Assembly: GCA_025362495.1 (NCBI GenBank)
Contig: JANYGI010000116.1
Span: 1 to 56,173 of the forward strand
DNA length: 56,173 nucleotides
From: Byssovorax sp.
GTDB taxonomy: Bacteria > Myxococcota_A > Polyangia > Polyangiales > Polyangiaceae
Direction of reading: 5' to 3'
Shown here: positions 14,552-38,771 of the stretch, one piece after another
Layout of the letters: every line of letters begins with the position of its first letter
Numbering within the stretch: the stretch's first letter is position 1
Translations under genes and position numbers: made by a program
The notes under the pieces: generated by a model
What the model was told of the DNA's origin: nothing
Seen by the model: only the letters and a program-made list of their open reading frames with translations
The model's database searches: none

Positions 14552-14555
<4 letters not shown>
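13824..14555 (-). CDS. Exported Cys-rich protein, possible lipoprotein
   Basis: A 243-residue protein starting with GTG at 14555, which overlaps the TGA of the upstream sigma-54 activator (GTGA), so translation is coupled. The N-terminus [20 protein letters not shown] ends in LGLAC, a signal peptide with a near-lipobox. The mature part has many cysteines ([44 protein letters not shown]), suggesting a disulfide-bonded periplasmic or surface protein. No known family was recognised. Coupling to a kinase and FHA activator suggests an output or sensor of that pathway. Confidence 0.75.
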
Positions 14556-15934
<1,379 letters not shown>

Positions 15935-15965: not shown

Positions 15966-17732
15966 TCACCGCAGGTCGACGAGCGCCGTGCCCCCGGCGC
16001 GGACCGTGACGCTGGCCTGCTTGTGTTGTGTGGCGTCGGCCCTCGAAATGGCGAGCAGCGCGAACGTCCCGCAACGCCAGGTGTAGACCCCGGGGCTCTG
16101 CACCGACTGCGGACCGCCGCTCACGATCCAGCTCCCGGTGGAGGCGATCCGCACGCCGCCCGTGCAGCCGTCCGCGGGCGTCACGCTCGGCGCGGTGGTC
16201 GCCGCGGTCGTGGCGCGCGGCGCGATCGATCGCGGAAGCGCCGGCGCGAGCGGTGGAGCGACGTCCGCCGAGGCGGTCGTGGACGCGGCGATGAGCGGCG
16301 GAGGATCCTCGGGCGCGCGCCGATGGCGTCCGCGGCGATCGATCTCGGGCGGCTCGGTCGACGCGGAGAGAACGGGCACGCGGGCCGGGGTGAGCAGAGC
16401 GCGGCTGCCGAGGCCGACGACGATGGCCAGGGCGAGCGCGACCGCGACGATCGCCAGCGCGTGGACCAGCGGAGGCGCGGGACTCAGCGGGATCACCGGG
16501 GCCGCGGACGGGTCTTCCATCGTCGGGGCGAACGGCGCGGGCGGGGGGATCGGCGCGGGGGTCGACGGCGCCGGTTCAGCCGGATCGGCGATCGTGGTCG
16601 GAACAGCGCGGCGCGAGGATCCCGTGTCGTCGCGCGTCGGCGGCGCGTCGGCTCCGGCGACGCGGATCGTGAACGAGCCGACGCCGCCGTCGACCCGGGT
16701 CCGGGTCAGCTCGCGCTCGGGGCTCGCCGGCTTGTCGGCCTCGTCGCTGTCGGTGCGCACCGCGCCCGAGAGCGCGATCACCCGCCGCCCCCGCGCCGGC
16801 TGCGCGCGCTGGGCGGCCTCGACGGCGGCGGCCACGTCGTCACCGCCCGCGAGCGTCTGGCCGTGCGCCTTCAGCGCCTCGATCGCCGTCGACATCGCCC
16901 TGGCGTCGGGGAAGCGATCGCCGCGCGACGGCGCCAGGGCGCGGCGCACCAGGGCGTCGATCTCCGGGGTGACCTCGGCGCGGTGATCGCGCGCGCGGCC
17001 GAAGTCGCCGCGGTGCGCTGCGTCTTGTTGCTCGGCGAGCGTCGCGCCTTCGAACGGAAACGCGCCAGTGAGCAGGAAGAACAGCATGACGCCGACCGAG
17101 AAGAGGTCGGCGCGCGGATCGACGTCGTCGCCGTCGTACTGCTCGGGCGCCATGTACTGGGGCTTGCCGACGAGGCCCTTGGCGCGCGGGCCGCGCTCCG
17201 CGTCCTCGGGCCGGGCGATCAGCGCCACCCCGAAGTCGGCGACCTTCACCTCACCGACCGTCGAGAGCAGCACGTTGCCGGGGCTGACGTCGCGGTGCAC
17301 GAGCCAGCCGCCCTCGCCTCCCGACTTGGCGTGCGCGTGGTGCAGGCCGCGGAGCACCTGGGCGACGAGGAAGAGCGCGAGCGGGATCGGCAGCAGCTCG
17401 CCCCGCTCCGTGTACGCGCGATGGAGCCGCGCGAGATCGACGCCGTCGACGAGCTCGAGCACGAGGAAGTAGTCGCCGCCCTCGCCGCGGCCGAAATCGA
17501 GCACCTCCACGATGTTGGGGTGCGCGAGGCGCGTCATCAACTTGGCCTCGGCGATGAACAGCTCGGCCAGATCGCTGCGGCCGAGGTGGGCCGGGAGGAT
17601 GCGCTTGACGACGACGGGCTTCTCGAAGCCGCTCTCGCCCACGGCGACGGCGCGGAACACCTCGCCCATGCCCCCCGCGGCGAGGCGCTCTTGCAGGCGA
17701 TAGCGACCGAAGGGGACGGCCGTGCTGGTCAG
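15966..17732 (-). CDS. Membrane-anchored serine/threonine protein kinase
   Basis: A eukaryotic-type kinase. The first ATG in frame (17669) would cut into the glycine-rich loop; the frame continues upstream and encodes [19 protein letters not shown], a complete loop. The best start is CTG 17732, with GGGAG 7 nt upstream; no ATG, GTG or TTG lies in frame between it and an upstream stop. With that start the protein is 588 residues. The catalytic lysine is Lys43 (VVVKRIL), the catalytic loop HRDVSPGN (from 146), the metal motif ADFG (from 165) and the activation end MAPEQ. After the kinase domain come a Pro/Ala linker, one transmembrane helix (about 421-441) and a periplasmic C-terminal domain. 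It heads an operon with the FHA activator. Confidence 0.92.
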
Positions 17733-17841
17733 GGAAGAGCTCCCGCGTGCGCCATGAAGCGACGCTAGGCCGGGCAGCGCGAGGGGTCAAAGACGACCGA
17801 TCGCGCGCCGCTTCACGGCAGCGCGCGATCGCGGCGGAGGC

Positions 17842-19988: not shown

Positions 19989-22900
19989 TCAGCGCGGCTC
20001 GAACACCCGCACGCGGAGCGGCGCCGTCCAGTGCTTCTCTTCGTCGGTGTACTGCAAGTACGCGCGCGAGGCGGGGCCCGTCGTCGTGCCCGGGATCGCG
20101 GCGAGGAGCGCGATCGCCAGCACCCGGCGCTCGCCCGGCGCCATCGCGCGGAGGTGGACCACGAGCTCGCGACCGCGCAGCTCCCATGCGTCGATCTTCG
20201 CCTGCGCGACCAGGTCGTCGAGGCCGGCGGCGACGGCCGCGAGGCCCGCGGGGAGGCCGAGGATCGCCGTCACCATCGGGAGCGGTTCGCCGGTCACGTT
20301 GGCGAGCACGGCGCGGAGCTCGACGCTCTCGCCCTCGGGCAGCTCGGCGCGATCGAGCGACGTGGTGAGCGCGACCTTGCACATCGGCGCGCTCGGCGCG
20401 TCGGCGGTGCTCGCGCGGACGCGCAGCGTGTACGGCATCGGGGCGCCGCCGCGGAGGCGGATCGTCAGCTCGTGATCGCCGGGGCCGAGCGAGCCGGCGA
20501 AGGACGGCATCACTATCGCCGCGGACACGTCGGCGCCGAAGGGCGCGGTGACACACGGGGCTCCGTCGATCAGCACCTGGATCACCCCCGCGTGCTTCGG
20601 CCGCGAGCGCGTCGCCTCGAACGCGAGGAGGGCCTGGATCGCGAGCGCCGTGGCCTGCGAGGCGCCGAAGCGGCCGGCTTCGCCGTGATCGAGCAGCCAG
20701 CGTACGCCCAGCGCGGCGCGCCCCGGCTCGCCCGCGCCGAGCCACGCGAGGATCGCCAGCGCCGTCGTCTCGACGACGAGGTTCTCCCCGCCGGCGCGGG
20801 TGATCGACGTCGCCGCGCCGCGCACCGCGCCGTCGATCCCCTGCTTGTCGGCGAGCCGTTCGAGCACGCGCGCGGCGTCGCCCGGCGGCCGGCGATCGAC
20901 GATGGCGCTGGCCGCGAGGGCCAGGTGATACCCGTCGTCGCTCGCCAGCGCGCGCTCTGCGAGGAGAGCGAGATCGGGGTCGAGATCCGTGGCGCCGGCG
21001 CGTCCGAGCGCCCAGACGACGTACGCTTCAACGAGCGCCGCGTGCTCGTCGTCGTCAGCGCCGAGGAACCCGCCGCGACCATCGCGCTGCGAACGGAGCC
21101 ACGCCCGGGTGCGGCTCACCAGCGCGGGATCGACCGGCAGAACGCGCCCGATCTGCGCGAGGATGAGCAGCCCCCAGGCCGTGAGCGCGGCGTGACCTGG
21201 GTCGCCGCCGAACCATTCGAAGCCGCCGTCCTTGCGCTCGAGCTCCACGAGGCGCGCGTGGCTGCGCGTGGCGGCGTCGACGGCGCGCTGAAGAGTGCGC
21301 GGCTCGGTGCGGGGGCGCGCGAGCAGGAGCTGCAGCGTCGACGCGTCGAGGAGGGCCGTCGAGGCCGCGTGCTCGAAGCCGCCCCCGGGCTCCTGCGCGA
21401 GCGCCTCGCGGGCCTGCGCGAGCGTGGCGAGCGGCGACGGGTACAGCACGACCTCGGTGGCGATCGAGCCGGGCTCGATCGCCGCGGGGAGCCGGATCAC
21501 GTGGACCGCCGCGCCATCGGGATCGAGGCGCCCCGACGCATCGACCGTCCGCGGAAAGCCCGCGGGAGCCACGGAGATCGTGCGGGTCACCTCGTCGCCG
21601 CGGAGCCCGGCCGAAGCGCGCACGGTGACCGGGAAGACGCCCCTGCCCTTCATCACGGCGAGCGGGAGGCGCGCGCGCTCGCGGTGGCCCTCGCCGATCG
21701 AGAGCGGCACGGCGTCGCGGCCCGCGAGGAGGCCGCCCACGACCCACAGCGAGACGTTGACGTCGGCGTGCGTCGCCGTGCCGTTGGTGACCGTGATCGC
21801 GACGTCGAGGAGATCACCGGCGGTGACCTCGACCGGGAGGCGTGGCTCGACCGAGAACGGGCGCGTCGCTTCGAGGAGCGCCTCGCCGTGGCCGAGCGCG
21901 CCGGCGTCCGAGAAGGCGTCGGCGCGCGCGCGGAACGTCGTCACGGCGTCGCAGAGATCGAAGGTCACCTGGGCATCGCCGCCGGGCGAGGTCGTCACGC
22001 CGGCGTGCCAGTAGATCGTCTCGGCGAAGTCGCCCGGGGCGCCGCCTCCGGGAGCGGTGGCGCGGTGCGCGTACTCGCGGACGACGAGCAGCGGCGGCTC
22101 GGGACGCGGCGCGATCTTGCGCCCGTGCGGAGGCGACCACCCCGGCGGGAGGATCGGCGCGATCAACCGGGGCGGCGGGCCGGCGACGCGCGCCGGCGCG
22201 ACGAGGTAGCGCGTCCGCGCCTCGGCGGGCTTCACCTCGATCATGCGCGGCGCGTTCGGGCCCTTCGGCAGGAGCAACGCCGCCTGCGCGAGGGCCGGCG
22301 AGGGCGCGCGCCGCCGGGCGATCACCCGCTCGGCGCGGTCGCCGTGCTCGGCACCGAAGCGGTCGACGTCGAGGAACGCGAAGCGCCGGAATCCCTGTGT
22401 TCCCAGGAGCAAATCGAGCCGGCGCGGCGCGGCCTCGTCCGGCCCGAGGTACGCGGATGGGTCCGTGAAATCGAGCACCTCGCCGCCGAGCAAGGCCTGC
22501 TCGGCGAGGCTCGCGGCGCGCTCGCGCGGCGGCACGGCAGAGAGCAGCGCGTCGTCGGTCACGGCCAGCGTCACCGTCGCGGAGCACGGCACGCCGCCTT
22601 CGTCGGTGGTCTTCACGCGGAGCAGCACCGGGGATCGCAGGCCGGCGCGCGGAGGCCCTTCGCCGCGCGGCGGAGACGGCCCTTCGGATCGCATCTCGAC
22701 GCTGACGCGGAGCCCGCGCGACGGCCGTCGAAACACCAGGCGCTCCGCGCGCGGCAGCCCCGCGGCGTCGAGCACCGTGGCGCGGAGGACGCCGTCCGCG
22801 GACCCCGGCGGCGTCAGCGCGACCTCGCGCGCCTCGCCCGCGACCAGATCGACGCGCACCGCCGCGACCTCGCGCTCGCGCACCGAGAGCGTGATCCGCG

Positions 22901-24248
22901 CCTTGCCCGACGTCGCCGCCGTCACCCGCAAGCGCACCGGCTCCTCGATCCCGGTGACGTCGTCGATCGCCGCGAGCGCGAAGCCGTCGCGCTTCACCTC
23001 GGGGACCGGGAAGATCTCCGCCACGCCCTCCGGCTCGTCGACGAGCGCGATGTACGCGCGACCGGAGCGGGTCGGCGTCAGCGTCATCAGGCCGCGCCCT
23101 TCGTGCTCGGTGCGGAAGCGCGCGGCGACCGCGCCGCTGCTGTCGAGCACGCGCCCCGCGACGTCGACCGGCGCGCCGCGCGGCGTGCGCGCCTCGACAT
23201 ACAGGCGCCCCGCGAGGCCGACCACGAGCTCGCCGCCCTCGGGGTAGAACGCGAGGACGAGGCGCTGCCGATTGATGGGGATCGCCCGCGAAATGAGCTC
23301 GATCACGCCGCCGTCTTGCACCGTCACGGCCAGGGTGCCGTCGCCCGCGTCGATCTCCGCGGGCAGCCGGAAGCGCAGCGCGGCGATCCCCGCCGCGTCG
23401 AGCGCGACCTCGCTCCGGTGGACCTCGAGTCCATCGACCACGGCGACGATCGTGGCCACCGCCGTCGCGGGGACGCCGCCCTCGACGCGCACCGCCGACA
23501 GCGCCGCGATCACCTCCTCGCCGGGCCCGTACGCCTTGCGCGCGAGCTCGAGCTCGAGGCGCAGGTGCGGCACGCGGAGCGGGCGGACGGCGAACGCGAT
23601 CTCGGCCGGCGGGAAGCTCTCGGCCGGGCAGCGCGCGAAGAGCACGTACTCGCCGCCGGGCACGTCGTCGGGGATGGCCCACGAGAAGGCGCCGACGCCG
23701 CGCGCGACGGGCGCGGGGCGGCTCACCACGACGTCGCCGCGGGGCGTGCGCACCTCGAAGCCCAGGTTGCCGGCGCGCTTCGCGGGCGCGCGCGTGAGCG
23801 CGTCGAGCAGCGCGGCGCGGGCGTAGAGCACCTCGCCCGGCCGGTAGAGCGGTTTGTCGGTCGCGAGGTGCGCCAGCAGCCGCTCGTCCGGGAACGCCGG
23901 ACGCAGCGATCCGGGCACGCTGGAGATGGCGCTGATGCTGTCGACCGCGGCGTCAGCCGGCGCGCCGCAGCGGAAGATCCCCCGCGTCGAGCCGATCGCG
24001 ATCTCGTCGCCGTCAACGAGCAGCGACTCGTCGCGCACGCGGACGCTGTTGATGAACGTCCCGTTGAGGCTGCCGAGATCGCGGAGCACGTAGTGATCGC
24101 CGCGCCGCTCGATCAGGCAGTGCTCCTTCGACGCGATCTTGTCGAGGATCTGGATCGAGTTGTTCGGGTGGCGGCCGAGCGAGTTCATCGGCCCCAGGAC
24201 CACGACGTGCTCCCCGCCCGCCACCTTGATCACGAGGTGCGCAGTCAT
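19989..24248 (-). CDS. FHA domain-alpha-2-macroglobulin fusion protein
   Basis: A 1419-residue protein with no signal peptide. Residues 1-95 form an FHA domain (SLGRHPNN, KIASKEHC, LRDLGSLNGTFIN). Macroglobulin domains follow, beginning at ATDKPLYRPGEVLYAR (129-144), the typical MG2 entry. The A2M domain is near 720-800 (REYAHRA, DFAETIYWHAG, FDLCDAVTTFRARADAF). The thioester position reads PGGGFEH (954-960) where functional proteins have a PxGCxEQ-type motif, so the cysteine and glutamine are both missing. The helical thioester-domain repeats (GGFEWFGGDPGHAALTAW and onward) are retained. Normal bacterial A2Ms are periplasmic lipoprotein protease traps. This one looks cytosolic and phosphothreonine-responsive, with the covalent trap lost. 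It lies 77 nt downstream of a MacA-like gene on the same strand. Confidence 0.9.
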   Translation of the reverse strand: MTAHLVIKVAGGEHVVVLGPMNSLGRHPNNSIQILDKIASKEHCLIERRGDHYVLRDLGSLNGTFINSVRVRDESLLVDGDEIAIGSTRGIFRCGAPADAAVDSISAISSVPGSLRPAFPDERLLAHLATDKPLYRPGEVLYARAALLDALTRAPAKRAGNLGFEVRTPRGDVVVSRPAPVARGVGAFSWAIPDDVPGGEYVLFARCPAESFPPAEIAFAVRPLRVPHLRLELELARKAYGPGEEVIAALSAVRVEGGVPATAVATIVAVVDGLEVHRSEVALDAAGIAALRFRLPAEIDAGDGTLAVTVQDGGVIELISRAIPINRQRLVLAFYPEGGELVVGLAGRLYVEARTPRGAPVDVAGRVLDSSGAVAARFRTEHEGRGLMTLTPTRSGRAYIALVDEPEGVAEIFPVPEVKRDGFALAAIDDVTGIEEPVRLRVTAATSGKARITLSVREREVAAVRVDLVAGEAREVALTPPGSADGVLRATVLDAAGLPRAERLVFRRPSRGLRVSVEMRSEGPSPPRGEGPPRAGLRSPVLLRVKTTDEGGVPCSATVTLAVTDDALLSAVPPRERAASLAEQALLGGEVLDFTDPSAYLGPDEAAPRRLDLLLGTQGFRRFAFLDVDRFGAEHGDRAERVIARRRAPSPALAQAALLLPKGPNAPRMIEVKPAEARTRYLVAPARVAGPPPRLIAPILPPGWSPPHGRKIAPRPEPPLLVVREYAHRATAPGGGAPGDFAETIYWHAGVTTSPGGDAQVTFDLCDAVTTFRARADAFSDAGALGHGEALLEATRPFSVEPRLPVEVTAGDLLDVAITVTNGTATHADVNVSLWVVGGLLAGRDAVPLSIGEGHRERARLPLAVMKGRGVFPVTVRASAGLRGDEVTRTISVAPAGFPRTVDASGRLDPDGAAVHVIRLPAAIEPGSIATEVVLYPSPLATLAQAREALAQEPGGGFEHAASTALLDASTLQLLLARPRTEPRTLQRAVDAATRSHARLVELERKDGGFEWFGGDPGHAALTAWGLLILAQIGRVLPVDPALVSRTRAWLRSQRDGRGGFLGADDDEHAALVEAYVVWALGRAGATDLDPDLALLAERALASDDGYHLALAASAIVDRRPPGDAARVLERLADKQGIDGAVRGAATSITRAGGENLVVETTALAILAWLGAGEPGRAALGVRWLLDHGEAGRFGASQATALAIQALLAFEATRSRPKHAGVIQVLIDGAPCVTAPFGADVSAAIVMPSFAGSLGPGDHELTIRLRGGAPMPYTLRVRASTADAPSAPMCKVALTTSLDRAELPEGESVELRAVLANVTGEPLPMVTAILGLPAGLAAVAAGLDDLVAQAKIDAWELRGRELVVHLRAMAPGERRVLAIALLAAIPGTTTGPASRAYLQYTDEEKHWTAPLRVRVFEPR

Positions 24249-24325
24249 CCGCGTTCAGGAGAGCACCCTGCGCCGCGGACGCGCAACCGCTCGTTGGACC
24301 ATCCGCGGACGTCGTACCGCCGGCG

Positions 24326-25816
24326 TCAGAACCGCATGCGCGGGCTGTTGGCGGCCGGCGCGCTCGGCTTCGAGGACGCGGGCAGCGGCGCGTCGTCGGC
24401 GGTGACGGCCTCGATCACGATGAGGTCGCCCTCGTGGAGATCGCCCTCGAGGATCTCGGTGACGGTGCCGTCGGTGAGGCCGGTGCGAACCGGGACCTGC
24501 ACGGGCTTCGGGCCGCGCATCACCCAGAGCGAGCGGCGATCGGTGCCGACGCCCGACGCCGCCGGATCGGCCGATCGGCCGCCGCGCGGCCTCGGCGCGG
24601 ACGCATCGGCCGCGGGGGCCGACGCCGTGGCGATCGCGCTGGCGCTGGCGAGCGCGAGCGCGCTGGCGAGCGGCATCGCCGTCCCGATCGGCTTCACGCT
24701 CGCGAGCGGCCCCGTGAGGACGACCGGCGTCGCGCTCGCGGCGGGATCCACGGGCGGATCGGGGCTCTGCGCCGCTGTGGACGCCGCGCCTCGTCGACCT
24801 CCGCCGCCTCCCCAGCTCGACGACGGCGCCGGCGCGGCGCTGCCGACGAGCGCCGCCGGCGGCCGGAAGCGCAGCGCCGCGTTGGGCACGGCGAGCACGT
24901 CGACGCGCTCCGCGTAGACGATCGACGCGTTGGCCGTCATCCCGGGCTTGAGCTCGAGATCGGGGTTCTCCACGTCGATCACCGCGTCGTACGTGACGAC
25001 GTTCTGCACCGACACCGGCGAGTTGCGGATCTGCCGGATGGTGCCCTTGAACTTCTTGGTCGGGTACGCGTCGACCACGAACGTCGTCGCCATGCCGGCC
25101 TTGAGCTTGCCGACGTCGCCCTCGGTCACGCTGGTATCGACCTGCATTTGCCGCAGATCCTGGGCGATCGTGAACAGCGTCGGCGCCGAGAGCGAGGCCG
25201 CGACCGTCTGACCGACGTCGACCGCGCGCGAGATCACCACGCCGTCGATCGGCGAGAGGATGTCCGTGTACTGGAGGTTGACCTGGGCCTGCTCGACCGA
25301 CGCGCGCGCCTGCTCGACGGCGCCCTTCGCGGCGTCGATCTGCGCCTTGGCGACGGCCGCCGTCGTCTCGGCCGCGTCGACGTCGACCTGGGTGTTGATC
25401 CCCTCGGCGCGGAGCGCCCTGGCGCGGACGAGCTGCCGATCGCCGTCGAGCGCCTGGGCCTTGGCCTTCTCGAGGTTGCCCTGCGCCGCGTAGGCGTTGG
25501 CGCGCGCCTGCGCGAGGGCCGCCTGGTAGAGCTGCGGATCGATCCGCGCGATGCGCTGCCCCTTCTTCACGGGCGAGTTGAAGTCGACGCCGATCTCCAG
25601 CACGCGCCCGCTCACCTGGCTACCGACGAGGACCGTGACGTGCGCCGAGAGCGTCCCGGTGGCGCTCACCTTCGCCGAGATGCGCGCCTTCTCGACCTTC
25701 GCGGTGCGGTAGGTGATCTCGGGCTCGCGCGTCAGGCTCCCGTAGAGAAAGTAGCCGCCGATCGCGAGCCCGACGATCACTGCGGCGATGAGCACGCGAA
25801 TCAGAATGCGCTTCAA
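24326..25816 (-). CDS. MacA-like efflux periplasmic adaptor
   Basis: A 496-residue membrane fusion protein. TTG 25816 has GGAG 8 nt upstream and gives MKRILIRVLIAAVIVGLAIGG, an inner-membrane anchor. Lipoyl/barrel halves appear as VLVGSQVSGRVLEIGVDFN and SPIDGVVISRAVDVGQTVAAS, flanking an alpha-helical hairpin rich in Ala/Gln/Glu (roughly residues 90-190). The C-terminal part is interrupted by an Ala/Ser/Pro-rich insertion (about 345-440) before LWVMRGPKPVQVPVRTGLTDG. It would link an inner-membrane transporter (MacB ABC type or RND) to an outer-membrane channel, but neither partner gene is adjacent. Confidence 0.9.
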   Translation of the reverse strand: MKRILIRVLIAAVIVGLAIGGYFLYGSLTREPEITYRTAKVEKARISAKVSATGTLSAHVTVLVGSQVSGRVLEIGVDFNSPVKKGQRIARIDPQLYQAALAQARANAYAAQGNLEKAKAQALDGDRQLVRARALRAEGINTQVDVDAAETTAAVAKAQIDAAKGAVEQARASVEQAQVNLQYTDILSPIDGVVISRAVDVGQTVAASLSAPTLFTIAQDLRQMQVDTSVTEGDVGKLKAGMATTFVVDAYPTKKFKGTIRQIRNSPVSVQNVVTYDAVIDVENPDLELKPGMTANASIVYAERVDVLAVPNAALRFRPPAALVGSAAPAPSSSWGGGGGRRGAASTAAQSPDPPVDPAASATPVVLTGPLASVKPIGTAMPLASALALASASAIATASAPAADASAPRPRGGRSADPAASGVGTDRRSLWVMRGPKPVQVPVRTGLTDGTVTEILEGDLHEGDLIVIEAVTADDAPLPASSKPSAPAANSPRMRF

Positions 25817-28303: not shown

Positions 28304-30595
28304 TCAGCCCCCGTTCGGAGGCCGCCCACGGCCCGGCGCGCGCGCCGGCGTCACGCGCGCGAGCGCGAGGCAGAGGAGCGCGCACGGGTGCGCCTCGTAC
28401 TGGTCTTGCTGGAGGTTGACCTCGACGATCAACCGCGCCGGGAAGCGCGCGTAGAGCGGCAGCTTGGCGGCGATCATGTCGGGCACGTAGGTCGGAACGG
28501 CGACGCCGCCGCGCTGCCACAGGAGCGCGCGCACCCACGACTTGCCGAGGATGGTGCGCTTTTGATGGTGGCGCTGCTCGACGAGGATCCGCTCGATCTG
28601 CTGATCGAGGTAGCCCGCGGGCAGCGACGAGGCGACCTGCGGGAACGCGTCGCGGAGGCGGTTGGTGAGGCCCTCGATCGCGCGCGCCGAGCCCGGGAGA
28701 TAGGGTGATTTCAGCGCCTCGGTCGTCGCCTCGAAGGTGTCCTTGAGCCGCTTGTCGGGACCGGACGTGAACGGCGCGACGGCGCCGAGGGAGGCCTTCA
28801 ACCTCTCGAGATCGCTGAAGGTGAGCTCGAGCTCGCCGCGCAGCACGAGCAGCGGTGGATCGAACGAGCCGCTCGGCGACGTCGCCGCGGCGACGACCGC
28901 GTCGAGCTCGTCGAGGCTCGACGCCACCGCGTCGGTGAGCACTCCGAAGACGTCGCGTCGGTCCTTGACCTCCGGCGGCTCTTCGGCGGGGTCGTCGTCG
29001 TACGCGATCTCGGCCGGAACCGGCTGGATCGCCGCGATGAGCTCTTGCCAGGGGGCGTGGAGGCGCGCGCGATCCGGCGTCGCCGGATCGAAGGCGACCA
29101 GCTCGACGATGTCGACCGAGGCCGCGCGGGCGACGGGCGGAGGCGCGGCCGGGATCAACGCCGGGACCGGCAGGGGCGGCGGGAGCGCCTGGAAAGGCGG
29201 GGGCGCGAACGTCGACGTCGCCAGCGAGGGGAGCGGCGCCGCGGCCTCGCTCCACGACGTGACGCCGCGCGGCGGCGGCGCCTGCGGGAGCGCGGGGGTC
29301 GACATCGGCGGCGGAGGCCGCGCGTCGCCGTCGCGCGGCCACGAAGGATCGACGCGCAAGGCCCCCGGTTGCAGGGTGTCGCCGCTGTTGATCGCGAGCG
29401 CCGGCGCCGGGACGATCGCGCTCGTTTCGAGCCACGGCGGCGGGCGGTTCGTCGCCGCGCGTGGCGCGACGTAGGGCTCCGCGGTCGCCTGGGAAAACGG
29501 GAGCGCCGTGTCGACGGGCGCCCGCATGATCGCCGAGATCTCGTGGACCGCGGTGCCGTGATCGTCGCTGGCGTGGGCGGCGGCGCGCTCGATCGGCGCC
29601 GCCTCGACGCCGCACTGCTGCTGGATCTCGGCCCACGTGAGCGGGCGAGCCAGCTGCTCGAGCAGCACGACGACCCGCCCCTCGTCGTGCGGGCCGTGGA
29701 CGCCGATCTGGCCGCGCCACGTCAGCGTGCAGACGCCGCGATCGGTGTCGATCCACAGCGTGTCACAGGCGAGGCTCACCTCTTCCAGGCCGCCGTTGCG
29801 CTGCACGAACGCGCGGGGCCGCTGGTTGGGGAGCTTCGTGACGAGGCGGGGATGCTGCGGCGTCAGGTTCTCGAGCATCAGCACCGCCCCGGGCTCGATG
29901 CGATCGGTCTGCTGGTCCGGGGGCGCGGCGTTGAAGAACGACGCGTCGAAGTCGTCGGGGAGCAGGTAATCGTCGAGCCGGCCTTCGGGGAACGAAGCGG
30001 CCGCGGCGCCGAGGCGGATCCGGCGCGACGGCCAGCTCGCGGCGATCGGGCCGAAGCCGACGGGCGCCATCGCGTCCGGGCGCATGCCGTTCGGGCCCGG
30101 CGGCATCTGCAGGTTCGGCAAGGGCCCGCCCGACCGAGGATCGACGCGCACCCCGACCAGGTTGTCCGGGCCCACCGCGGCGCGCTCGTAGCAGAGCTGC
30201 ATGCTCACGAACGGGGGCCCTTCGCGAAGGCCGCCCTCGGGTGTCCACGCGCGGTCGCCGCACACCTCGATCGTCTTGTCGATCCCGGCGAGGCCGAGCC
30301 GCGCGAGCAGCGAGCGCACCGGCGTCTTGCTGGGCGCGAATGCCTTGCCGACCACCATCACGTCGGCGCGCGGTTTGAAGGGCGCGAAATCGCTGGGCAC
30401 CCGGACGCTGCGGTTCGGATCGTCGTCCCAGAAGCCGTCGCCGTGGCTGGGATCGTCCTGCTGTCGCGCGAACCGGAGCTCGACGGGGCGGAGCTCGTAC
30501 GTCGCCTTGCAGACCACGGTGAGCACAAAGCCGCCGGAGCTCGGGCGCCACAGGAGCGACGCGACGCGGACCGGAGAGAGCGAGACGACATCCAT
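28304..30595 (-). CDS. DUF2169 family type VI secretion accessory protein
   Basis: A 763-residue protein whose N-terminal third is the DUF2169 domain (LSPVRVASLLWRPSSGGFVL, VCKATYELRPVELRFARQQ, later PNQRPRAFVQRNGG and ACDTLWIDTDRG). DUF2169 proteins are encoded with PAAR, VgrG and effectors in type VI clusters and act as effector adaptors or chaperones. A long Pro/Ala-rich linker leads to an uncharacterised C-terminal domain (LELTFSDLERLKASLGAVAP onward) ending in a Pro/Arg tail. ATG 30595 is chosen because conservation starts there. It diverges from the GH19-like and PAAR genes, so it probably loads one of them onto the spike. Confidence 0.87.
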   Translation of the reverse strand: MDVVSLSPVRVASLLWRPSSGGFVLTVVCKATYELRPVELRFARQQDDPSHGDGFWDDDPNRSVRVPSDFAPFKPRADVMVVGKAFAPSKTPVRSLLARLGLAGIDKTIEVCGDRAWTPEGGLREGPPFVSMQLCYERAAVGPDNLVGVRVDPRSGGPLPNLQMPPGPNGMRPDAMAPVGFGPIAASWPSRRIRLGAAAASFPEGRLDDYLLPDDFDASFFNAAPPDQQTDRIEPGAVLMLENLTPQHPRLVTKLPNQRPRAFVQRNGGLEEVSLACDTLWIDTDRGVCTLTWRGQIGVHGPHDEGRVVVLLEQLARPLTWAEIQQQCGVEAAPIERAAAHASDDHGTAVHEISAIMRAPVDTALPFSQATAEPYVAPRAATNRPPPWLETSAIVPAPALAINSGDTLQPGALRVDPSWPRDGDARPPPPMSTPALPQAPPPRGVTSWSEAAAPLPSLATSTFAPPPFQALPPPLPVPALIPAAPPPVARAASVDIVELVAFDPATPDRARLHAPWQELIAAIQPVPAEIAYDDDPAEEPPEVKDRRDVFGVLTDAVASSLDELDAVVAAATSPSGSFDPPLLVLRGELELTFSDLERLKASLGAVAPFTSGPDKRLKDTFEATTEALKSPYLPGSARAIEGLTNRLRDAFPQVASSLPAGYLDQQIERILVEQRHHQKRTILGKSWVRALLWQRGGVAVPTYVPDMIAAKLPLYARFPARLIVEVNLQQDQYEAHPCALLCLALARVTPARAPGRGRPPNGG

Positions 30596-30735
30596 GGGGC
30601 GCGGCACCCTGCTCCGCTGCTCGGGCGGGCGCAATCGCGACGGCGCAATTGATGTCGACACCGCGACGCAACTTCCATTCACACGCATCCGCGCCGTGTC
30701 TCACTTGATGTACGCTGCCCGAGAGGCTGCCCTTC

Positions 30736-31548
30736 ATGCCGACGTCGAATTCGCAAACAGACCTTCCGAGCGTCGACGAGGCGCGCACGGGCATCGGCTC
30801 CGGTGGCCTGCGCGCCACGCTGAGCTTGCTGGCGACCACGCACAGCACGCCGGCGCCCCGCGCCCCGACGCCCGCGGGCCACGCCGCTCCGCCCCACGCG
30901 GCGCCCGCTCCCGCCGCGCGCCCCGCTCGCCCACCGGAGCACATCGCGCCCGCGCCCGCCGCCCCCTCGATCGACGTTCGACCGGCGCGCGGCGGAGCCG
31001 GAGCAACGCTCGTCAGCGCGGCGGACCTCCGCGCGATCATGACGCAGCTCTCCAGCACCAAAGTGCAGCGCTACCTCGAGCCGCTCAACCAGGCGATGGC
31101 CGAGTTCACGATCAACGTGCGCCTGCGCAAGGCGGCGTTCCTCGCGCAGGTCGCCCACGAGAGCGGCGAGCTCGCGTGGTTCCACGAGTTCGCTTCGGGC
31201 ATGGAGTACGACCTCTCGCGCAACCCGCGAAAGGCCCGCGAGCTCGGCAACGTGAACCCGGGCGATGGCCCGCGCTACAAGGGGCGCGGCCCGATCCAGC
31301 TCACTGGTCGCAACAACTACCGCGCGTGCGGGCGCGCCCTCGGGCTCGATCTCGAGGGCCAGCCCGAGATGGCGGTCGACCCTAGCGTCGCGTTTCGCAC
31401 CGCGTGCTGGTTCTGGTCGACGCACGGCCTCAACCTGCTCGCCGATCAACAAGACTTCCGCGCGATCACTCGGCGGATCAACGGTGGCTACAACCACTAC
31501 GCCGAGCGGCTCCGCTACTACGAGCTCGCCCTTCGTGTTTTGCACTGA
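30736..31548 (+). CDS. GH19 chitinase/muramidase-like effector
   Basis: A 270-residue protein. The first 90 residues are a Pro/Ala-rich linker with no signal peptide. From about 95 it matches the glycoside hydrolase 19 lysozyme-like fold: AAFLAQVAHESGELAW holds the catalytic glutamate (Glu142), and YKGRGPIQLTGRNNYR (181-196) is the signature substrate-cleft segment shared by GH19 chitinases and phage endolysins. It probably cuts peptidoglycan or chitin. Lack of a secretion signal, plus position 31 nt before a PAAR gene and opposite a DUF2169 gene, argues for delivery as T6SS cargo. The ATG is preceded by GAGAGG. No immunity gene is adjacent. Confidence 0.87.
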   Translation: MPTSNSQTDLPSVDEARTGIGSGGLRATLSLLATTHSTPAPRAPTPAGHAAPPHAAPAPAARPARPPEHIAPAPAAPSIDVRPARGGAGATLVSAADLRAIMTQLSSTKVQRYLEPLNQAMAEFTINVRLRKAAFLAQVAHESGELAWFHEFASGMEYDLSRNPRKARELGNVNPGDGPRYKGRGPIQLTGRNNYRACGRALGLDLEGQPEMAVDPSVAFRTACWFWSTHGLNLLADQQDFRAITRRINGGYNHYAERLRYYELALRVLH

Positions 31549-31578
31549 CGCCCCACGCACGAGACGGAGCCACGACGA

Positions 31579-33333
31579 ATGCCCCTCGCCGGAAGAGTAG
31601 GTGACCTCGCCAAGCACGGCGCCGATCAAGGCCATGGCAAGCAGGGGTCGCCGGACGTCCTGATCAACGGCCACGCGGCGCTGCGCGTCGGCGATCCAGG
31701 CGAAAAGTGGCGCGCCGAGAAGGGCAGCCGCGGCGTGCTCATCAACGGCATCCCCGCGCATCGCCTCGGCGACGAGACGTCGCATCACACCGGCAACGGG
31801 CAGCTCGTCGAGGGCAGCCCCGACGTGTTCATCGGCGACCGCGGCGGCGGGCATGCGAAGGCCGAGCCGCACGCGCAGTCGCTGTTCGTGCAGGTGTCGG
31901 ACGCGCTCGACCGCGCGATCGAGGAGGTGAAGGTGCGGATCAGCTGCCCGCACAAGGACGACGAGCACCGCACGATCACCGGCAGCACGACGCTGAGCGG
32001 CCTCTGCTCCAGCGCCACCGTGATGGTGCAGAAGGCGCTGCAGAAGGGGACGTGGGATCACGGCGCGTCGAGCGGCGAGATCGTCGCTCCGGCGCACTCG
32101 CACGTCGAGGCGGCCCCGATCGCCAAGGCGCCCGCGCCGGCCCCTGCGCGCGCGAACGCCCCCGCGGCGGCGGCGCCGGCTGCAGCGAGCGCGCCCGCCG
32201 CGGCCCCGCCGGCTGCGCCCGTCACGCACGTCGTCCACGCGCCGGCCCCGCCGGCGACGCCCCCCGCGCAGCACGAGGTGCACCTCGTCCGTCCGACGAC
32301 GCCGACGGCGCAGGTGACGCTCACCACGGTGCACAACTGGGTCGAGCTCGTGTTCCGCGCCTTCGGCCAGACGCTGCCCACGGCGGCCACCGAGATCGCC
32401 ATCCTCGGCGTGCGCGAGGCCAGCCTCTCGGGCAAGGGCTCCGTCAACGATCTCGAAGCCGAGGCCGGCGAAGGGCACGCCGACAAGGTCACCTTCACGA
32501 CCGAGGCGCGCGACGCGAACTTCGCCCATGCGACGACGTGGAACGATCTGCTCTTCATCGCCTACACCGACTCGACGCCGGCGAAGGCCCAGCACGTCGA
32601 GGTCTTCGAGTGCACCATCGACGCCGGCGAAGGCGAGAGCGCGCTCGGCGTCCCCGTCACCCTCGAAGGCAAGCTCTACTCGGGGCGCCCCGGCGGCCAC
32701 ATCAGCAGCCGCTACCCCGGCAGCGACATCTGCCTGCACCTCTTCAGCGAGACGATGGGCAAGATGGCGCTGGCCCGCGACTGCACGCGCAGCGCTCGGA
32801 CCTTCAACGACATCGCGAGCGCCAGGAACAACGCGACCAACTGGCGCTTCGCCAGCGTCGAAGACAACGCGTCGATCCACATGCACTTCGGCGCGGAGGG
32901 CGGCACCGTCGGCAGCTGGTCGACGGGCTGCACGGTGCTCCACCACCACTACTTCATCAGGAACAAGGCCGGCGCGCGCGTGCCGGATCCCGCCGCCGTC
33001 CGTTACAAGCGCTTCATGGAGCTCTACCGGGGCGCGGCCAACAAGAACAAGATCCCCTACCTCGTCGTCTCCAGCGAGTACGTGCGCAACTACGCCGAGT
33101 GGGCCCGCCTCGTCGGCGCGACGCCGGCCGAGGGCAGCAAGTCCGCGAGCGTGATCCTCCGCGACAAGCTGCGATCCCCCGCGGGGATGGAGGGGCGCTA
33201 CCTGCCGTCGTTCATGACGACGTCGTTCGCGAACGAGGTCAGCGCCCTGGAAACGAAGGCCGGGACGAGCGCCGCCCACGCGGCCAACCTCAAGAGCTCG
33301 CTCGAGCTGGCGACGTTCACGCTCTCGATCTGA
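31579..33333 (+). CDS. PAAR protein with C-terminal L,D-transpeptidase-like motif
   Basis: A 584-residue evolved PAAR protein. The N-terminus (MPLAGRVGDLAKHGADQGHG, SPDVLINGHAALRVGD, VLINGIPAHRLGD, SPDVFIGDRGG) has the repeated Gly/Asp/His pattern of PAAR spike tips, over residues 1-92. A central region and an Ala/Pro linker (about 180-240) precede a C-terminal domain of about 340 residues. This contains IHMHFG (433-438) and SWSTGCTVLHH (446-456). A histidine followed by SxGC is the catalytic arrangement of YkuD L,D-transpeptidases, with Cys451 as candidate nucleophile. The resemblance is motif-level only. The domain is likely a cell-wall-acting toxin carried on the T6SS tip. Confidence 0.85.
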   Translation: MPLAGRVGDLAKHGADQGHGKQGSPDVLINGHAALRVGDPGEKWRAEKGSRGVLINGIPAHRLGDETSHHTGNGQLVEGSPDVFIGDRGGGHAKAEPHAQSLFVQVSDALDRAIEEVKVRISCPHKDDEHRTITGSTTLSGLCSSATVMVQKALQKGTWDHGASSGEIVAPAHSHVEAAPIAKAPAPAPARANAPAAAAPAAASAPAAAPPAAPVTHVVHAPAPPATPPAQHEVHLVRPTTPTAQVTLTTVHNWVELVFRAFGQTLPTAATEIAILGVREASLSGKGSVNDLEAEAGEGHADKVTFTTEARDANFAHATTWNDLLFIAYTDSTPAKAQHVEVFECTIDAGEGESALGVPVTLEGKLYSGRPGGHISSRYPGSDICLHLFSETMGKMALARDCTRSARTFNDIASARNNATNWRFASVEDNASIHMHFGAEGGTVGSWSTGCTVLHHHYFIRNKAGARVPDPAAVRYKRFMELYRGAANKNKIPYLVVSSEYVRNYAEWARLVGATPAEGSKSASVILRDKLRSPAGMEGRYLPSFMTTSFANEVSALETKAGTSAAHAANLKSSLELATFTLSI

Positions 33334-33336
33334 TCG

Positions 33337-33377
33337 CGGTCGAGCGCGCTGCGCGGAGGGCGCAGCGCGCTCGACCG
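33337..33377. terminator. Perfect 18-bp hairpin, bidirectional terminator
   Basis: Positions 33337-33354 and 33360-33377 are exact reverse complements (core TCGAGCGCGCTGCGC) around a 5-nt GGAGG loop. The hairpin begins 3 nt after the PAAR stop codon and ends 7 nt before the stop codon of the opposing vgrG. It is the strongest stem in the window and has no U-tract. Confidence 0.8.
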
Positions 33378-33384
33378 ACGCCCC

Positions 33385-36300
33385 TCAGCGGCGCCGCGCG
33401 GGCGGAGGCGCGGGAGGCGGCGGCGGAGGGGGCCAGATCCGCGCGAGCGCGTCGGCGGGTACGGGGTGGCGCGCGGCCTCGCCGTGCTGATCGCCGAGGA
33501 CCTCGTCGACGTAGCCGACCCGATCCGCGGGCGTGTGCGGATCGACGACGTAGTGCGTCCCATCCGAGCTGAACTCTCGTCCGCCGTTGTAGCGACGGAT
33601 CGCCGCGCGGATCACGACGCCGAGCGGCGCCTCTGGCAGGCCCGGGTTGGCCTCGCGCAGGTTGGCGAGATCGTGGCGACCACGCTCCATGTAGACGTTC
33701 TGGAAGCTGCTGATCCCTTCGCTCACGTTCCGCTTCCAGTTCCAGAAGATGCGCGGGAAGAGGTTGCTCGGCGTGGTGATCCGGTTCGGCGGCCAGCGCC
33801 ATTCGTCCGCGGTCGGATCGCGCTGCACGATGCCGACGCCCGACGGCGGCCCGTAGAGCGGCGCCTCGTTCTTGAACTGCGCGAGCGAGTGGTTCGACTC
33901 GTGGCAGAACATGCGGAGGAAGAGCCAGGCGAGATCGCCGGCCTTGTCGACGATCATCGCCTCGACCGCCGCGCGCGCGACGTTCTGGCCGACGACCTTG
34001 AAGCCGTTCACGACCTTCACCAGCGTCACGTTGGCGAGCTCGGGCCCGCCCTCGAACGTCGCCTTGAGCTCGAGATCGCCGCCGACGAGCTCCGCGGGCG
34101 CGAGCAGCACCGTCTTCGCCTCGTTGGGCTTGGTGGTGAAGGTGCCGGCCGCGAAGCGGAACTCCTGCATGCGGTAGCCGCGGTCCGCGTCGGCGTCGCG
34201 CACGCGGTACGAGCCGGTGATCGTCGCCTCCCAGCGGACGGTGCCCACGGTCGTCTCGTTCCCTTGCACGAGCACCCGCGCCTTCAGCTCGATCGACGGC
34301 ATCGCGGGATCGGGGCCGAGGTAGGTCCCCGGCTCGATCGGGAACTTCGTGGCCGGCGCGGGCGAGAGGACCTCGACCACGATCGGCACGACGTGAACGG
34401 TCGGCTTGGCCTTCGGCGCGGTCTGCGCCGGGGTGTGGCCCACAGGGATCACCGCGGGCGGCGCGGCGGCTCTCGTCGCGGGCGCCGCGGCTGTCGCAGC
34501 CGGCGCAGCCGACTTCGCGACCGGCGCCGACGCGGGCTTCGCTGCGGGCGCCGCGGCCTTCACGACCATCGCGGCGGGGGTCGCCGGCGGATCGCCGATC
34601 TTCACGTGGTACGGCCCGGCCTTGTCTACGGGCAGCCGCACGTGACCGGCGCCGTCCGTCACCTGCCGCGGCGAGGTCGTGCCGTCGGCATGCTCGACGT
34701 GCACGCGCGCGCCTGCGAGCGGCAGCCCCTCGAAGAGCAACTGGAACCACACCAGATGATCGATCAGCGTCGCCGGCTTCGCCGCGTCGGCCGCCTTGGT
34801 GATCTTCGGCGGGTTGATCTGCACGTACGGCATGCCCTGGATCACCACGGTGCCGCCGGCCTTGATCTTCACCTCGTGCTGCGCGGTGACCGTGATGTTG
34901 GGCCCGTCGAGCACGATGGTCGCGCCCCCGGTGGTGATGGTGATCCGCCTGGCGATGATCTCGCGCCGCGTGTCCATCGGCTTCAGGTCGGGCTGGCCCA
35001 TCGCGCCGACGTGCGCGTCGGTGATGCCCGCCATGCGCAGCTCGTGCATGCTGCCGACGGTGATGGCGTCCTGGATGGCCACCGTCGTCCCGAGGTGCGC
35101 GCCGATCACGCTGACGCGGTCGCCCCCGATCTCCTCGCGCTCGTCGTGGAGCACGACCTTCTCGAAATCGCGCTCGGCCCGCAGGGACAAGCGCTCGCGC
35201 CCGGCGGTGTCGTCGAAGGAGATCTCGTTGTAGCCAGGCGATTTCGGCGACGACGAGCTGCGCCAGACGCTGTGGGATTTGCCCGCGGGCAGGCCGTGCG
35301 GGAGCGGGTTCTCGCCGTCGTGGACGCGGCCGATCACGATCGGCTGATCGGGGTTGCCCTCGTAGAATGCGACGAGCACCTCTTGCCCCACGCGCGGGAC
35401 GGCGATCATGCCGAAGCCAGCGCCGGCCCAGCCGTCGTCGACGCGGACCCACGCGCTGCGATGGTCGTCGTGGATGCCCTCGCGATCCCAGTGGAAGCGC
35501 ACGCGCACGCGGCCGAACTCGTCGGTGTGGATCTCCTCGCTCGCGGGGCCGACCACGACGGCGCTCTGGATGCCCTCGACCCGCGGCCAGCTCACCCGGC
35601 GCGGCGGGCGCACCTTCGCGGACGCGAACGCGGCCACGACGTTGACGACCAGCGTCTGATCGACGCGCCCGTCGATCCGCGTCTGCGTGACGAGCAGCCG
35701 CTGGTCCACGGCGATCTCCGGGCGCGGGGCGCCGGCGATCGTGAAGACGCTCCCGGGCGCGAGATCGACGAGGCTGGTGGCGAGCTCGACGCGGCGGCGA
35801 TCCTCACGCACCGCCTGGAGTCGGCGCTCGGCGAGCGCGTTGCCCTGGTGCTCGTCGGATCGCGCGTGGCTCTGATCGTCGGCGACCGGCGTATCGTTCG
35901 CGGCGATCGACGCCGCCGGTACGTCGGCGATGGCCGAGCCGGGCGCATACGCGTAGCGCTCGAGCTTCGCCTCGCCGGGTCCCGCCGCCTCGGCTCGGTA
36001 AGCGAGCGCGAAGTCCGGCCGCCGAAAATCGTAGTCGGCGATCGTGACGGCGCCGTTCTTCATCTGGTGCGCGACGCGCACGTCGGCGACGAAGGGCAGC
36101 GCCTGGGTCGGGCTCAGCTCGCTCGTGAACTTCACGCCGGCATGCCGCGTCTCGGCGCGCTCGGGGCCGTCGGCGAGCACGAGGTGCGAGGCGCCGTCGC
36201 CCCGCTGATCGTCGAAGAAGTAGCTGATGCCCGCCTCTTCGAGGAGGCGATCGAAGAGCTCGAGATCGCTCTCGCCGTACTGCACGCGCACCTCGTGGCG

Positions 36301-36711
36301 CGCGAGGAGCTCCTCGGTGACGAGGGTCGTGACCTCGATCTTCCACTCCGCGAGCAGCGCCTGGACCATCTCGAGCGCGGTCTGGTGCTGGAGGATGCGG
36401 TGACCGCGGCGCTGCGAGAGCAGCCAGAGCCGCGGCACGATCCGCAGCATGTAGGTGGTGAGGCCGCCGGGCTCGACCTCCATTTGCTCGACGAACGACA
36501 CGACGCCCGAGAAGGCGCGACGCCCGAGCGAGCCCTCGTCGATCCGCAGCGTCGCCTCGGCGCCGATCAGGCGCTCGAAGTCGAGATCGCTGTCGGGCGT
36601 CACCGCGGCGAACGCCACTTCGAACGGCGACGACAGCCCCTCGGCGATGTCGATCGAACGCACGGACATGCCGTGGCCCGCATACGACGGGATCTGGATC
36701 TCGACTGTCAC
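33385..36711 (-). CDS. vgrG: Evolved VgrG with C-terminal lysozyme/transglycosylase-like domain
   Basis: An 1108-residue T6SS spike protein. The VgrG core spans about 1-600 (PFEVAFAAVTP, QYGESDLELFDRLLEEAGI, DEFGRVRVRFHWDREG, VPRVGQEVLVAF, DQPIVIGRVHD). A beta-helix tail (RRITITTGGATIVLDGPN) and an extended domain follow, then an Ala/Pro linker (about 713-757). The C-terminal domain has MFCHESNH with Glu938, followed by YGPPSGVGIVQRDP and AIRRYNGG. This E...GxGxxQ...YNGG order is that of lysozyme-like lytic transglycosylases. It ends in polyproline. The GTG start at 36711 has a GAGAG upstream. It is encoded 13 nt after the second vgrG. Confidence 0.9.
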   Translation of the reverse strand: MTVEIQIPSYAGHGMSVRSIDIAEGLSSPFEVAFAAVTPDSDLDFERLIGAEATLRIDEGSLGRRAFSGVVSFVEQMEVEPGGLTTYMLRIVPRLWLLSQRRGHRILQHQTALEMVQALLAEWKIEVTTLVTEELLARHEVRVQYGESDLELFDRLLEEAGISYFFDDQRGDGASHLVLADGPERAETRHAGVKFTSELSPTQALPFVADVRVAHQMKNGAVTIADYDFRRPDFALAYRAEAAGPGEAKLERYAYAPGSAIADVPAASIAANDTPVADDQSHARSDEHQGNALAERRLQAVREDRRRVELATSLVDLAPGSVFTIAGAPRPEIAVDQRLLVTQTRIDGRVDQTLVVNVVAAFASAKVRPPRRVSWPRVEGIQSAVVVGPASEEIHTDEFGRVRVRFHWDREGIHDDHRSAWVRVDDGWAGAGFGMIAVPRVGQEVLVAFYEGNPDQPIVIGRVHDGENPLPHGLPAGKSHSVWRSSSSPKSPGYNEISFDDTAGRERLSLRAERDFEKVVLHDEREEIGGDRVSVIGAHLGTTVAIQDAITVGSMHELRMAGITDAHVGAMGQPDLKPMDTRREIIARRITITTGGATIVLDGPNITVTAQHEVKIKAGGTVVIQGMPYVQINPPKITKAADAAKPATLIDHLVWFQLLFEGLPLAGARVHVEHADGTTSPRQVTDGAGHVRLPVDKAGPYHVKIGDPPATPAAMVVKAAAPAAKPASAPVAKSAAPAATAAAPATRAAAPPAVIPVGHTPAQTAPKAKPTVHVVPIVVEVLSPAPATKFPIEPGTYLGPDPAMPSIELKARVLVQGNETTVGTVRWEATITGSYRVRDADADRGYRMQEFRFAAGTFTTKPNEAKTVLLAPAELVGGDLELKATFEGGPELANVTLVKVVNGFKVVGQNVARAAVEAMIVDKAGDLAWLFLRMFCHESNHSLAQFKNEAPLYGPPSGVGIVQRDPTADEWRWPPNRITTPSNLFPRIFWNWKRNVSEGISSFQNVYMERGRHDLANLREANPGLPEAPLGVVIRAAIRRYNGGREFSSDGTHYVVDPHTPADRVGYVDEVLGDQHGEAARHPVPADALARIWPPPPPPPAPPPARRR

Positions 36712-36724
36712 TGGGCGCTCTCTC

Positions 36725-38581: not shown

Positions 38582-38771
38582 GCGCGCAATCTAGCCGTTT
38601 CTCTCGCGACCTCGAAGAATTTCGCGCGGTGACGCGCCGGATCTCTCGCGCCGACCACCGCGCTCTCGCGCGCCGCGCCGACCGGAGTCACCGTCGTCGG
38701 GCACGCGCGCCCTGCCCCTCCGGTGCGCCGACGCGACGGCTCCGACGACGCCCGCCCGCCGAGCGTGGGAA

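Follow-up and report, generated by a model that had tools for sequence, protein, structure and literature searches.

What could an alpha-2-macroglobulin (A2M) do if it carries no export signal and has lost its thioester? This question is raised by a gene from Byssovorax sp. (family Polyangiaceae; GenBank assembly GCA_025362495.1) on contig JANYGI010000116.1, of which we analyzed positions 1 to 56,173 (the window). The gene encodes a fusion of an FHA domain with an A2M body, which we will refer to as the FHA-A2M protein. Our preferred answer, to which we assign a probability of roughly 0.4, is that an exported-type macroglobulin was relocated to the cytoplasm, with an FHA domain in place of its signal peptide; that the thioester was lost; and that the protein acts as an FHA-docked switch that is sensitive to cleavage, or as a non-covalent trap.

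An earlier sequence-only reading of the window had placed the gene at the right coordinates and had described a protein that opens with an FHA domain, lacks a signal peptide, and otherwise follows the bacterial A2M architecture. This description held up. The matches to FHA, MG2, A2M, and TED_complement all exceed Pfam's curated cut-offs (Table 1), and MG2, A2M, and the thioester domain (TED) come in the order of the A2M superfamily, with which the fold matches described below agree. Across the stop-to-stop frame, the G+C content of the three codon positions (0.78/0.54/0.94) resembles that of the surrounding genes. A promoter scan gave no match.

The FHA domain starts immediately, as the alignment to GarA begins at residue 11. 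GarA and OdhI have the closest solved FHA sequences, although they are small proteins without a macroglobulin part. R26, S40, and N62 of the FHA-A2M protein align with the Arg, Ser, and Asn of GarA that we take to be the contacts to phosphothreonine. The nearest FHA domain in the same genome belongs to an FHA-GAF-cyclase (contig C220), which is 57% identical over residues 3-123 (the FHA domain and the start of the linker); the remainder of that protein consists of GAF and adenylate/guanylate cyclase domains. Other FHA matches in this genome are at most 42% identical.

On reading the N-terminal sequence of the FHA-A2M protein, we saw no signal peptide, whereas type I and type II bacterial A2Ms have export signals. 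The longest uncharged stretch within the first 45 residues is just 12, versus 16-24 in eight exported relatives. (We dropped hydropathy as a discriminator: the best 15-mer scores 1.54, which is not separable from the 1.41 of a lipoprotein-like start in the relative from genome G009; six other relatives score 1.91-2.94.) An exported start further upstream had been named as a finding that would overturn the earlier reading, but an in-frame TGA lies nine bases ahead of the ATG, which excludes such a start in that frame. Thus, the protein is apparently cytoplasmic, as far as its sequence can tell.

In eight relatives (L033, L007, L008, L090, L091, L097, L098, and half B of locus C3 from the same genome), a signal-like start is followed by a common start of the mature protein. 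This start has the form STDKPxYRPGE in L090, L091, and L098, and an example from L090, L097, and L098 is RYLAHISTDKPIYRPGE. In the FHA-A2M protein, the position of the signal is occupied by the FHA domain and a short linker, after which the sequence reads RLLAHLATDKPLYRPGE.

At the thioester site, where its relatives have PxGCFEQ, the FHA-A2M protein has PGGGFEH, as the codons confirm; in place of the CxEQ of type I bacterial A2Ms it has GFEH. For the C-terminal half, 15 close relatives define 99 near-invariant columns. The FHA-A2M protein keeps 78 of these (79%), while the relatives keep 83-99% in leave-one-out comparisons. Within the thioester segment, 6 of 11 near-invariant positions are altered (C, Q, S, Y, P, and Y), versus 15 of 88 elsewhere (one-sided Fisher's exact test, p = 0.011, with the bounds of the segment chosen after the list of columns was seen). 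The motif was lost through several changes, and because these affect six near-invariant positions in its surroundings instead of one, a local sequence error, the other finding named as able to overturn the earlier reading, is unlikely. In every relative that we examined, this position is a cysteine or, in some planctomycetes, a TGA. The reactive position of the A2M family varies in nature: it is cysteine in most of the relatives that we examined, it is glycine here, and it is an in-frame TGA codon in several planctomycetes.

Structure modelling predicts that the C-terminal fold is intact (mean predicted local distance difference test [pLDDT] of 81 and predicted TM score of 0.75). In the comparison of this model to solved structures, native complement C5 (Z 36.6, 654 aligned, root-mean-square deviation 4.4), native A2M (Z 36.0, 618 aligned, 2.9), and native C3 (Z 35.7, 661 aligned, 4.8) tie as the best matches. 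For the TED alone, the thioester (TE) domain of C5 has a Z score of 29.0, C4 has 26.6, and C3d has 25.3 or less. The model of the N-terminal half matches the MG rings of complement. Between the MG and A2M parts there is a putative bait-like linker of 116 residues; in eight relatives without a plug-like insert, this linker has 127-202 residues. Complement C5, which has the TED fold but no thioester, serves as a platform for non-covalent assembly; it is, however, a secreted animal protein with about 15% identity to the FHA-A2M protein, and the thioester-bearing C3 and A2M match the C-terminal half equally well.

From the loss of the thioester, the sequence-only reading had concluded that the protein has a new role. 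The loss is genuine, but a new role does not follow from it, because MagD of Pseudomonas aeruginosa, a type II bacterial A2M, also lacks CxEQ and yet traps protease: in the sections of the MagD report that we draw on, the bait of MagD is cleaved and MagD holds the protease non-covalently (PMC5764988). Therefore, the loss of the thioester removes covalent capture but not necessarily trapping. The FHA-A2M protein resembles MagD, as described there, in lacking CxEQ and in retaining a bait-like linker. It differs in that MagD is periplasmic, has a signal peptide, and belongs to a six-gene mag operon, and those sections describe no FHA domain in it (PMC5764988). The neighbors of the FHA-A2M gene encode a MacA-like adaptor, an epimerase, and an acyltransferase (mag partners were not sought by sequence). 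The type I A2Ms of E. coli (ECAM) and Salmonella (Sa-A2M) share the MG/A2M/TED architecture, and 5a42 and 4u48 are among the Foldseek matches. However, the solved type I chains are longer (1538-1597 residues), and ECAM and Sa-A2M are exported with an intact thioester, while the FHA-A2M protein has neither feature. Finally, there are compact exported A2Ms with PxGCFEQ, from the same family (G009), of planctomycete type (G196 and G206), and from Bacteroidota (L007 and L008), that are 27-41% identical in the C-terminal half; these differ in having a signal-like start, an intact cysteine, and no FHA domain.

The genome of Byssovorax sp. (10.8 Mb in 240 contigs) contains five A2M-family loci, including the FHA-A2M gene. 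Of the other four, those on contigs C180, C129, and C3 have CxEQ, and a motif scan of the locus on C152 found none. The closest of these relatives, a pair of split genes on C3, has a signal-like start on each half and the motif PGGCFEQ. Among other genomes, a search for relatives matched 4 of 20 (own genome excluded). A search of the order (E ≤ 1e-25) matched 10 of 57 genomes, the Byssovorax genome included, and all nine matches from elsewhere have CxEQ. A search of the family (E ≤ 1e-30) matched 14 of 60 genomes, again with our own, and yielded 16 matches from elsewhere; CFEQ is present in 14 of the 14 that were examined (G074:C12 and G072:C1 are outside this count). In both searches together, CxEQ is found in all 23 examined of the 25 matches outside our genome.

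We found no second FHA-A2M pair, either among 108 genomes of the family or when 84,980 species were scanned for exact words. In the former, a 167-residue query from the TED (E ≤ 1e-25) matched five genomes: our own and G009, G085, G103, and G069, whose A2Ms have PGGCFEQ or PSGCFEQ. The A2Ms of G009 and G069 have signal-like starts and no FHA domain. In G085 and G103 the cysteine is intact, but the contigs end before the N-terminus, so these two could carry an FHA domain. The exact-word scan returned five relatives, from Planctomycetota and Bacteroidota (the sequence of L010 is outside the comparison); it detects close relatives only, so a diverged FHA-A2M could have escaped it. A motif scan for FHA in 24 relatives found none, with L062 and L063 cut, L092 and L099 possibly incomplete, L021 and L064 being halves of split genes, and L006 having a frame break. 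In one alignment, the first 147 residues of the L006 row are out of frame, and these contribute to none of our counts. Plasmids gave one weak match to the FHA-A2M protein and viral contigs gave none. Our literature searches on FHA domains paired with macroglobulins returned unrelated papers only.

As to where the A2M part came from, we built a tree of 25 rows (with the thioester columns omitted and MagD outside the set). The FHA-A2M protein groups with planctomycete A2Ms (eight-row set, support 99/98) that bear either Cys or TGA; apart from L006, the other seven are labeled as planctomycetes because they were drawn as relatives of the L006 genome. Grouping it instead with five compact A2Ms from its own family is rejected (approximately unbiased test, p = 0.0147). 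This suggests that the A2M part was acquired from a planctomycete-like donor, which is likely but not secure because the branch is long (1.22) and the composition of the protein was flagged in the analysis.

Table 1. Positions of the FHA-A2M gene, its parts, and other features (positions in the window unless another sequence is named)
Feature	Position	Strand	Remarks
FHA-A2M fusion gene	19989..24248	-	1419 aa; ATG at 24248; open reading frame, Pfam, codon composition
In-frame TGA stop	24255..24257	-	5' of the ATG
FHA domain	residues 23-86 = 23991..24182	-	Pfam, 62.4 bits
MG2 domain (start of macroglobulin body)	residues 126-205 = 23634..23873	-	Pfam, 55.3 bits
Bait-like linker (putative)	residues 624-739 = 22032..22379	-	Pro/Ala/Arg-rich; low model confidence
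A2M domain	residues 744-834 = 21747..22019	-	Pfam, 50.9 bits
Thioester-domain fold (TED_complement)	residues 945-1208 = 20625..21416	-	Pfam, 38.9 bits
Degenerate thioester	residues 954-960 = 21369..21389	-	CCC GGG GGC GGC TTC GAG CAC
MacA/RND-type periplasmic adaptor	24326..25816	-	77 nt upstream of the FHA-A2M gene; possible operon partner
Ser/Thr protein kinase	15966..17786	-	candidate source of phospho-ligand
FHA-sigma54 activator	14552..15934	-	adjoins the kinase; Pfam
Type VI secretion tip island	28304-38590		DUF2169, GH19, PAAR, two VgrG
Cys-rich protein, 430 aa	18671-19963	+	Ser-rich low-complexity stretch; convergent with the FHA-A2M gene; no Pfam match at 0.001
Coding frame, 1507 aa	38772-43295	-	no Pfam match at 0.001
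TGA at the thioester position of other A2Ms	L006 12534; L090 4001; L091 3647; L092 1492; L093 6561; L094 5446; L095 3996; L096 3838	reverse in L092 and L095	planctomycete relatives

Near the FHA-A2M gene there are several genes that might work with it. The sequence-only reading had pointed to Ser/Thr kinase and FHA elements nearby, and these are present, in the form of a kinase and an FHA-sigma54 activator at a distance of 2.2 to 5.4 kb. As evidence they are weak, because the genome is rich in FHA genes: a search of this genome with the FHA-A2M protein (E ≤ 1e-3) gave 29 matches, and 24 of them are confined to the FHA end of the query, at positions no higher than 159. The kinase, the activator, the MacA-like adaptor on the same strand, and the type VI genes are at most candidate partners by position. 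One VgrG of the type VI island has a long C-terminal extension with a weak match to DUF4198 that falls under the cut-off.

In the scenario that we prefer, an FHA module akin to that of the FHA-GAF-cyclase would have come to sit in front of the mature protein instead of the signal peptide, and the protein would have lost its thioester but kept its fold. The FHA domain would dock the protein onto a partner that bears phosphothreonine, and the body, with its MG ring, exposed linker, and TED, would act as a conformational switch sensitive to cleavage or, much like MagD, as a trap that forms no covalent bond. A more specific version seems doubtful to us: an intracellular macroglobulin addressed by a kinase, in which a phosphorylated partner recruits the thioester-free protein via FHA and cleavage of the linker traps or senses a cytoplasmic protease, and which was built from a planctomycete-like A2M that had been acquired and a resident-like FHA domain.

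Several observations weigh against our preferred scenario. The alignment behind the C-terminal model drew on thioester-bearing relatives, and in the N-terminal model most of the FHA domain has pLDDT below 55, so that it was left unmodelled. The near-invariant sites lost outside the thioester, like the long branch, would also fit relaxed constraint, and the contrast with the thioester segment is tempered by the late choice of its bounds. In the planctomycete relatives L100 and L101, the N-terminus is a soluble stretch and then a membrane-like segment instead of a plain signal. Also, because we found no ortholog with an FHA domain, we cannot show that the fusion is under selection.

The main rival is that the protein is only a phospho-dependent scaffold, with the body serving as a large binding platform that neither traps nor senses proteases. 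This would account for the loss of the thioester with retention of the TED fold, and it draws on complement C5 being among the best matches and on the TE domain of C5 giving the highest score for the TED. However, a bait-like linker would be superfluous in a pure scaffold, and the tie with the thioester-bearing C3 and A2M takes away from the likeness to C5. On balance we consider a pure scaffold rather unlikely. After it we rank decay: the gene may be a recent fusion in which the acquired A2M has no export, no thioester, and no role. It is known from one genome, its branch is long, and the share of near-invariant columns it has lost (21 of 99) exceeds that of any of the 15 relatives. Yet the frame is full length with the composition of a coding sequence, the contact residues of the FHA domain are retained, and outside the thioester segment the protein keeps 73 of the 88 near-invariant columns, which makes decay improbable in our view.

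Delivery that does not need a signal peptide, for instance through the products of the type VI secretion tip genes at a distance of 4-14 kb, seems less probable still. Besides the proximity of these genes, the FHA domain has a weak likeness to TagH (28 bits to TIGR03354, the type VI TagH/Fha family, under its cut-off of 120.25). But the FHA-A2M protein has no PAAR or VgrG part, other genes intervene, and the closest FHA domain in the genome is from a cyclase. The draft state of the genome invites the suspicion that the fusion is an assembly chimera or reflects a local sequencing error. We think that there is very little chance of this, as the junction is in frame and lies at the mature start, and the loss of the thioester involves six positions. 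A join driven by a repeat is unlikely because the FHA DNA is just 66% identical to its closest copy in the genome, with a longest exact run of 30 nt.

The planctomycete A2Ms with TGA at the thioester position are of interest in their own right. In L006, the codon for the thioester cysteine is TGA. We collected 18 A2M matches across 60 genomes (that of L006 and relatives drawn for it). Eight of them, in six genomes, have a TGA inside the match, and in each of these it lies exactly at PxG-TGA-FEQ; the other 10 have Cys at the same site. Three of the eight cases (from G107, G157, and G170) are close kin (80-95% identical). A search of the L006 genome alone found a tRNA-Sec with anticodon TCA (73 bits, versus a gathering score of 47) and, about 0.7 kb from it, selA (547 bits). 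Downstream of the TGA, the differences between L006 and L090 are mainly at third positions of codons (14, 9, and 52 differences). A hairpin can be folded 3' of each TGA, with modest z-scores of -0.8 to -2.75 relative to mononucleotide shuffles, versus 0.8 to -1.6 in five genes with Cys. To judge by these sequences, the TGA probably encodes selenocysteine, so that these would be selenocysteine macroglobulins. The word "macroglobulin" is absent from the main text of a 2026 inventory of prokaryotic selenoproteins (PMC13188914), and a paper on planctomycete genomes that reports selenoproteins has no macroglobulin, its supplementary table of candidates aside (PMC4807772). Other literature searches on this subject yielded unrelated papers among those listed, so such proteins may already have been described.

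Other relatives have layouts of their own. In the Byssovorax genome (L021, 4158-8308, minus strand) and in G069 (L064, 6164-10278, plus strand), the A2M is split at the bait region into two genes whose order is swapped: the TED half comes first, with a lipoprotein-like start, and the MG half second, with a signal-like start. In two Bacteroidota (L007, 9950-14572, and L008, 9944-14518), a TonB plug domain is inserted in the bait region (67 bits to Pfam's Plug in L007, and similar by eye in L008); by eye, these genes are directly 3' of a gene for a TonB-receptor-like protein. Three planctomycete-type A2Ms (L100, 1225-6129, minus strand; L101, 1604-6754; and L009, 9146-11473) have a soluble N-terminal stretch and a membrane-like segment ahead of the body, a layout resembling that of anti-sigma factors. 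The soluble stretches of L100 and L101 have no Pfam match at E of 0.01.

The role discussed for bacterial macroglobulins is to guard the periplasm from proteases of foreign origin. With MagD, loss of the thioester was already known among them; an FHA domain that replaces the export signal is unusual, has been seen once so far, and looks new. If the relocation to the cytoplasm that we propose is true, then a complement-like body could be reused as an internal switch that is addressed by phosphorylation, and a protein class known outside the cytoplasm would have been turned inward. The FHA-A2M protein offers a clean test of how this fold acts without thioester chemistry.

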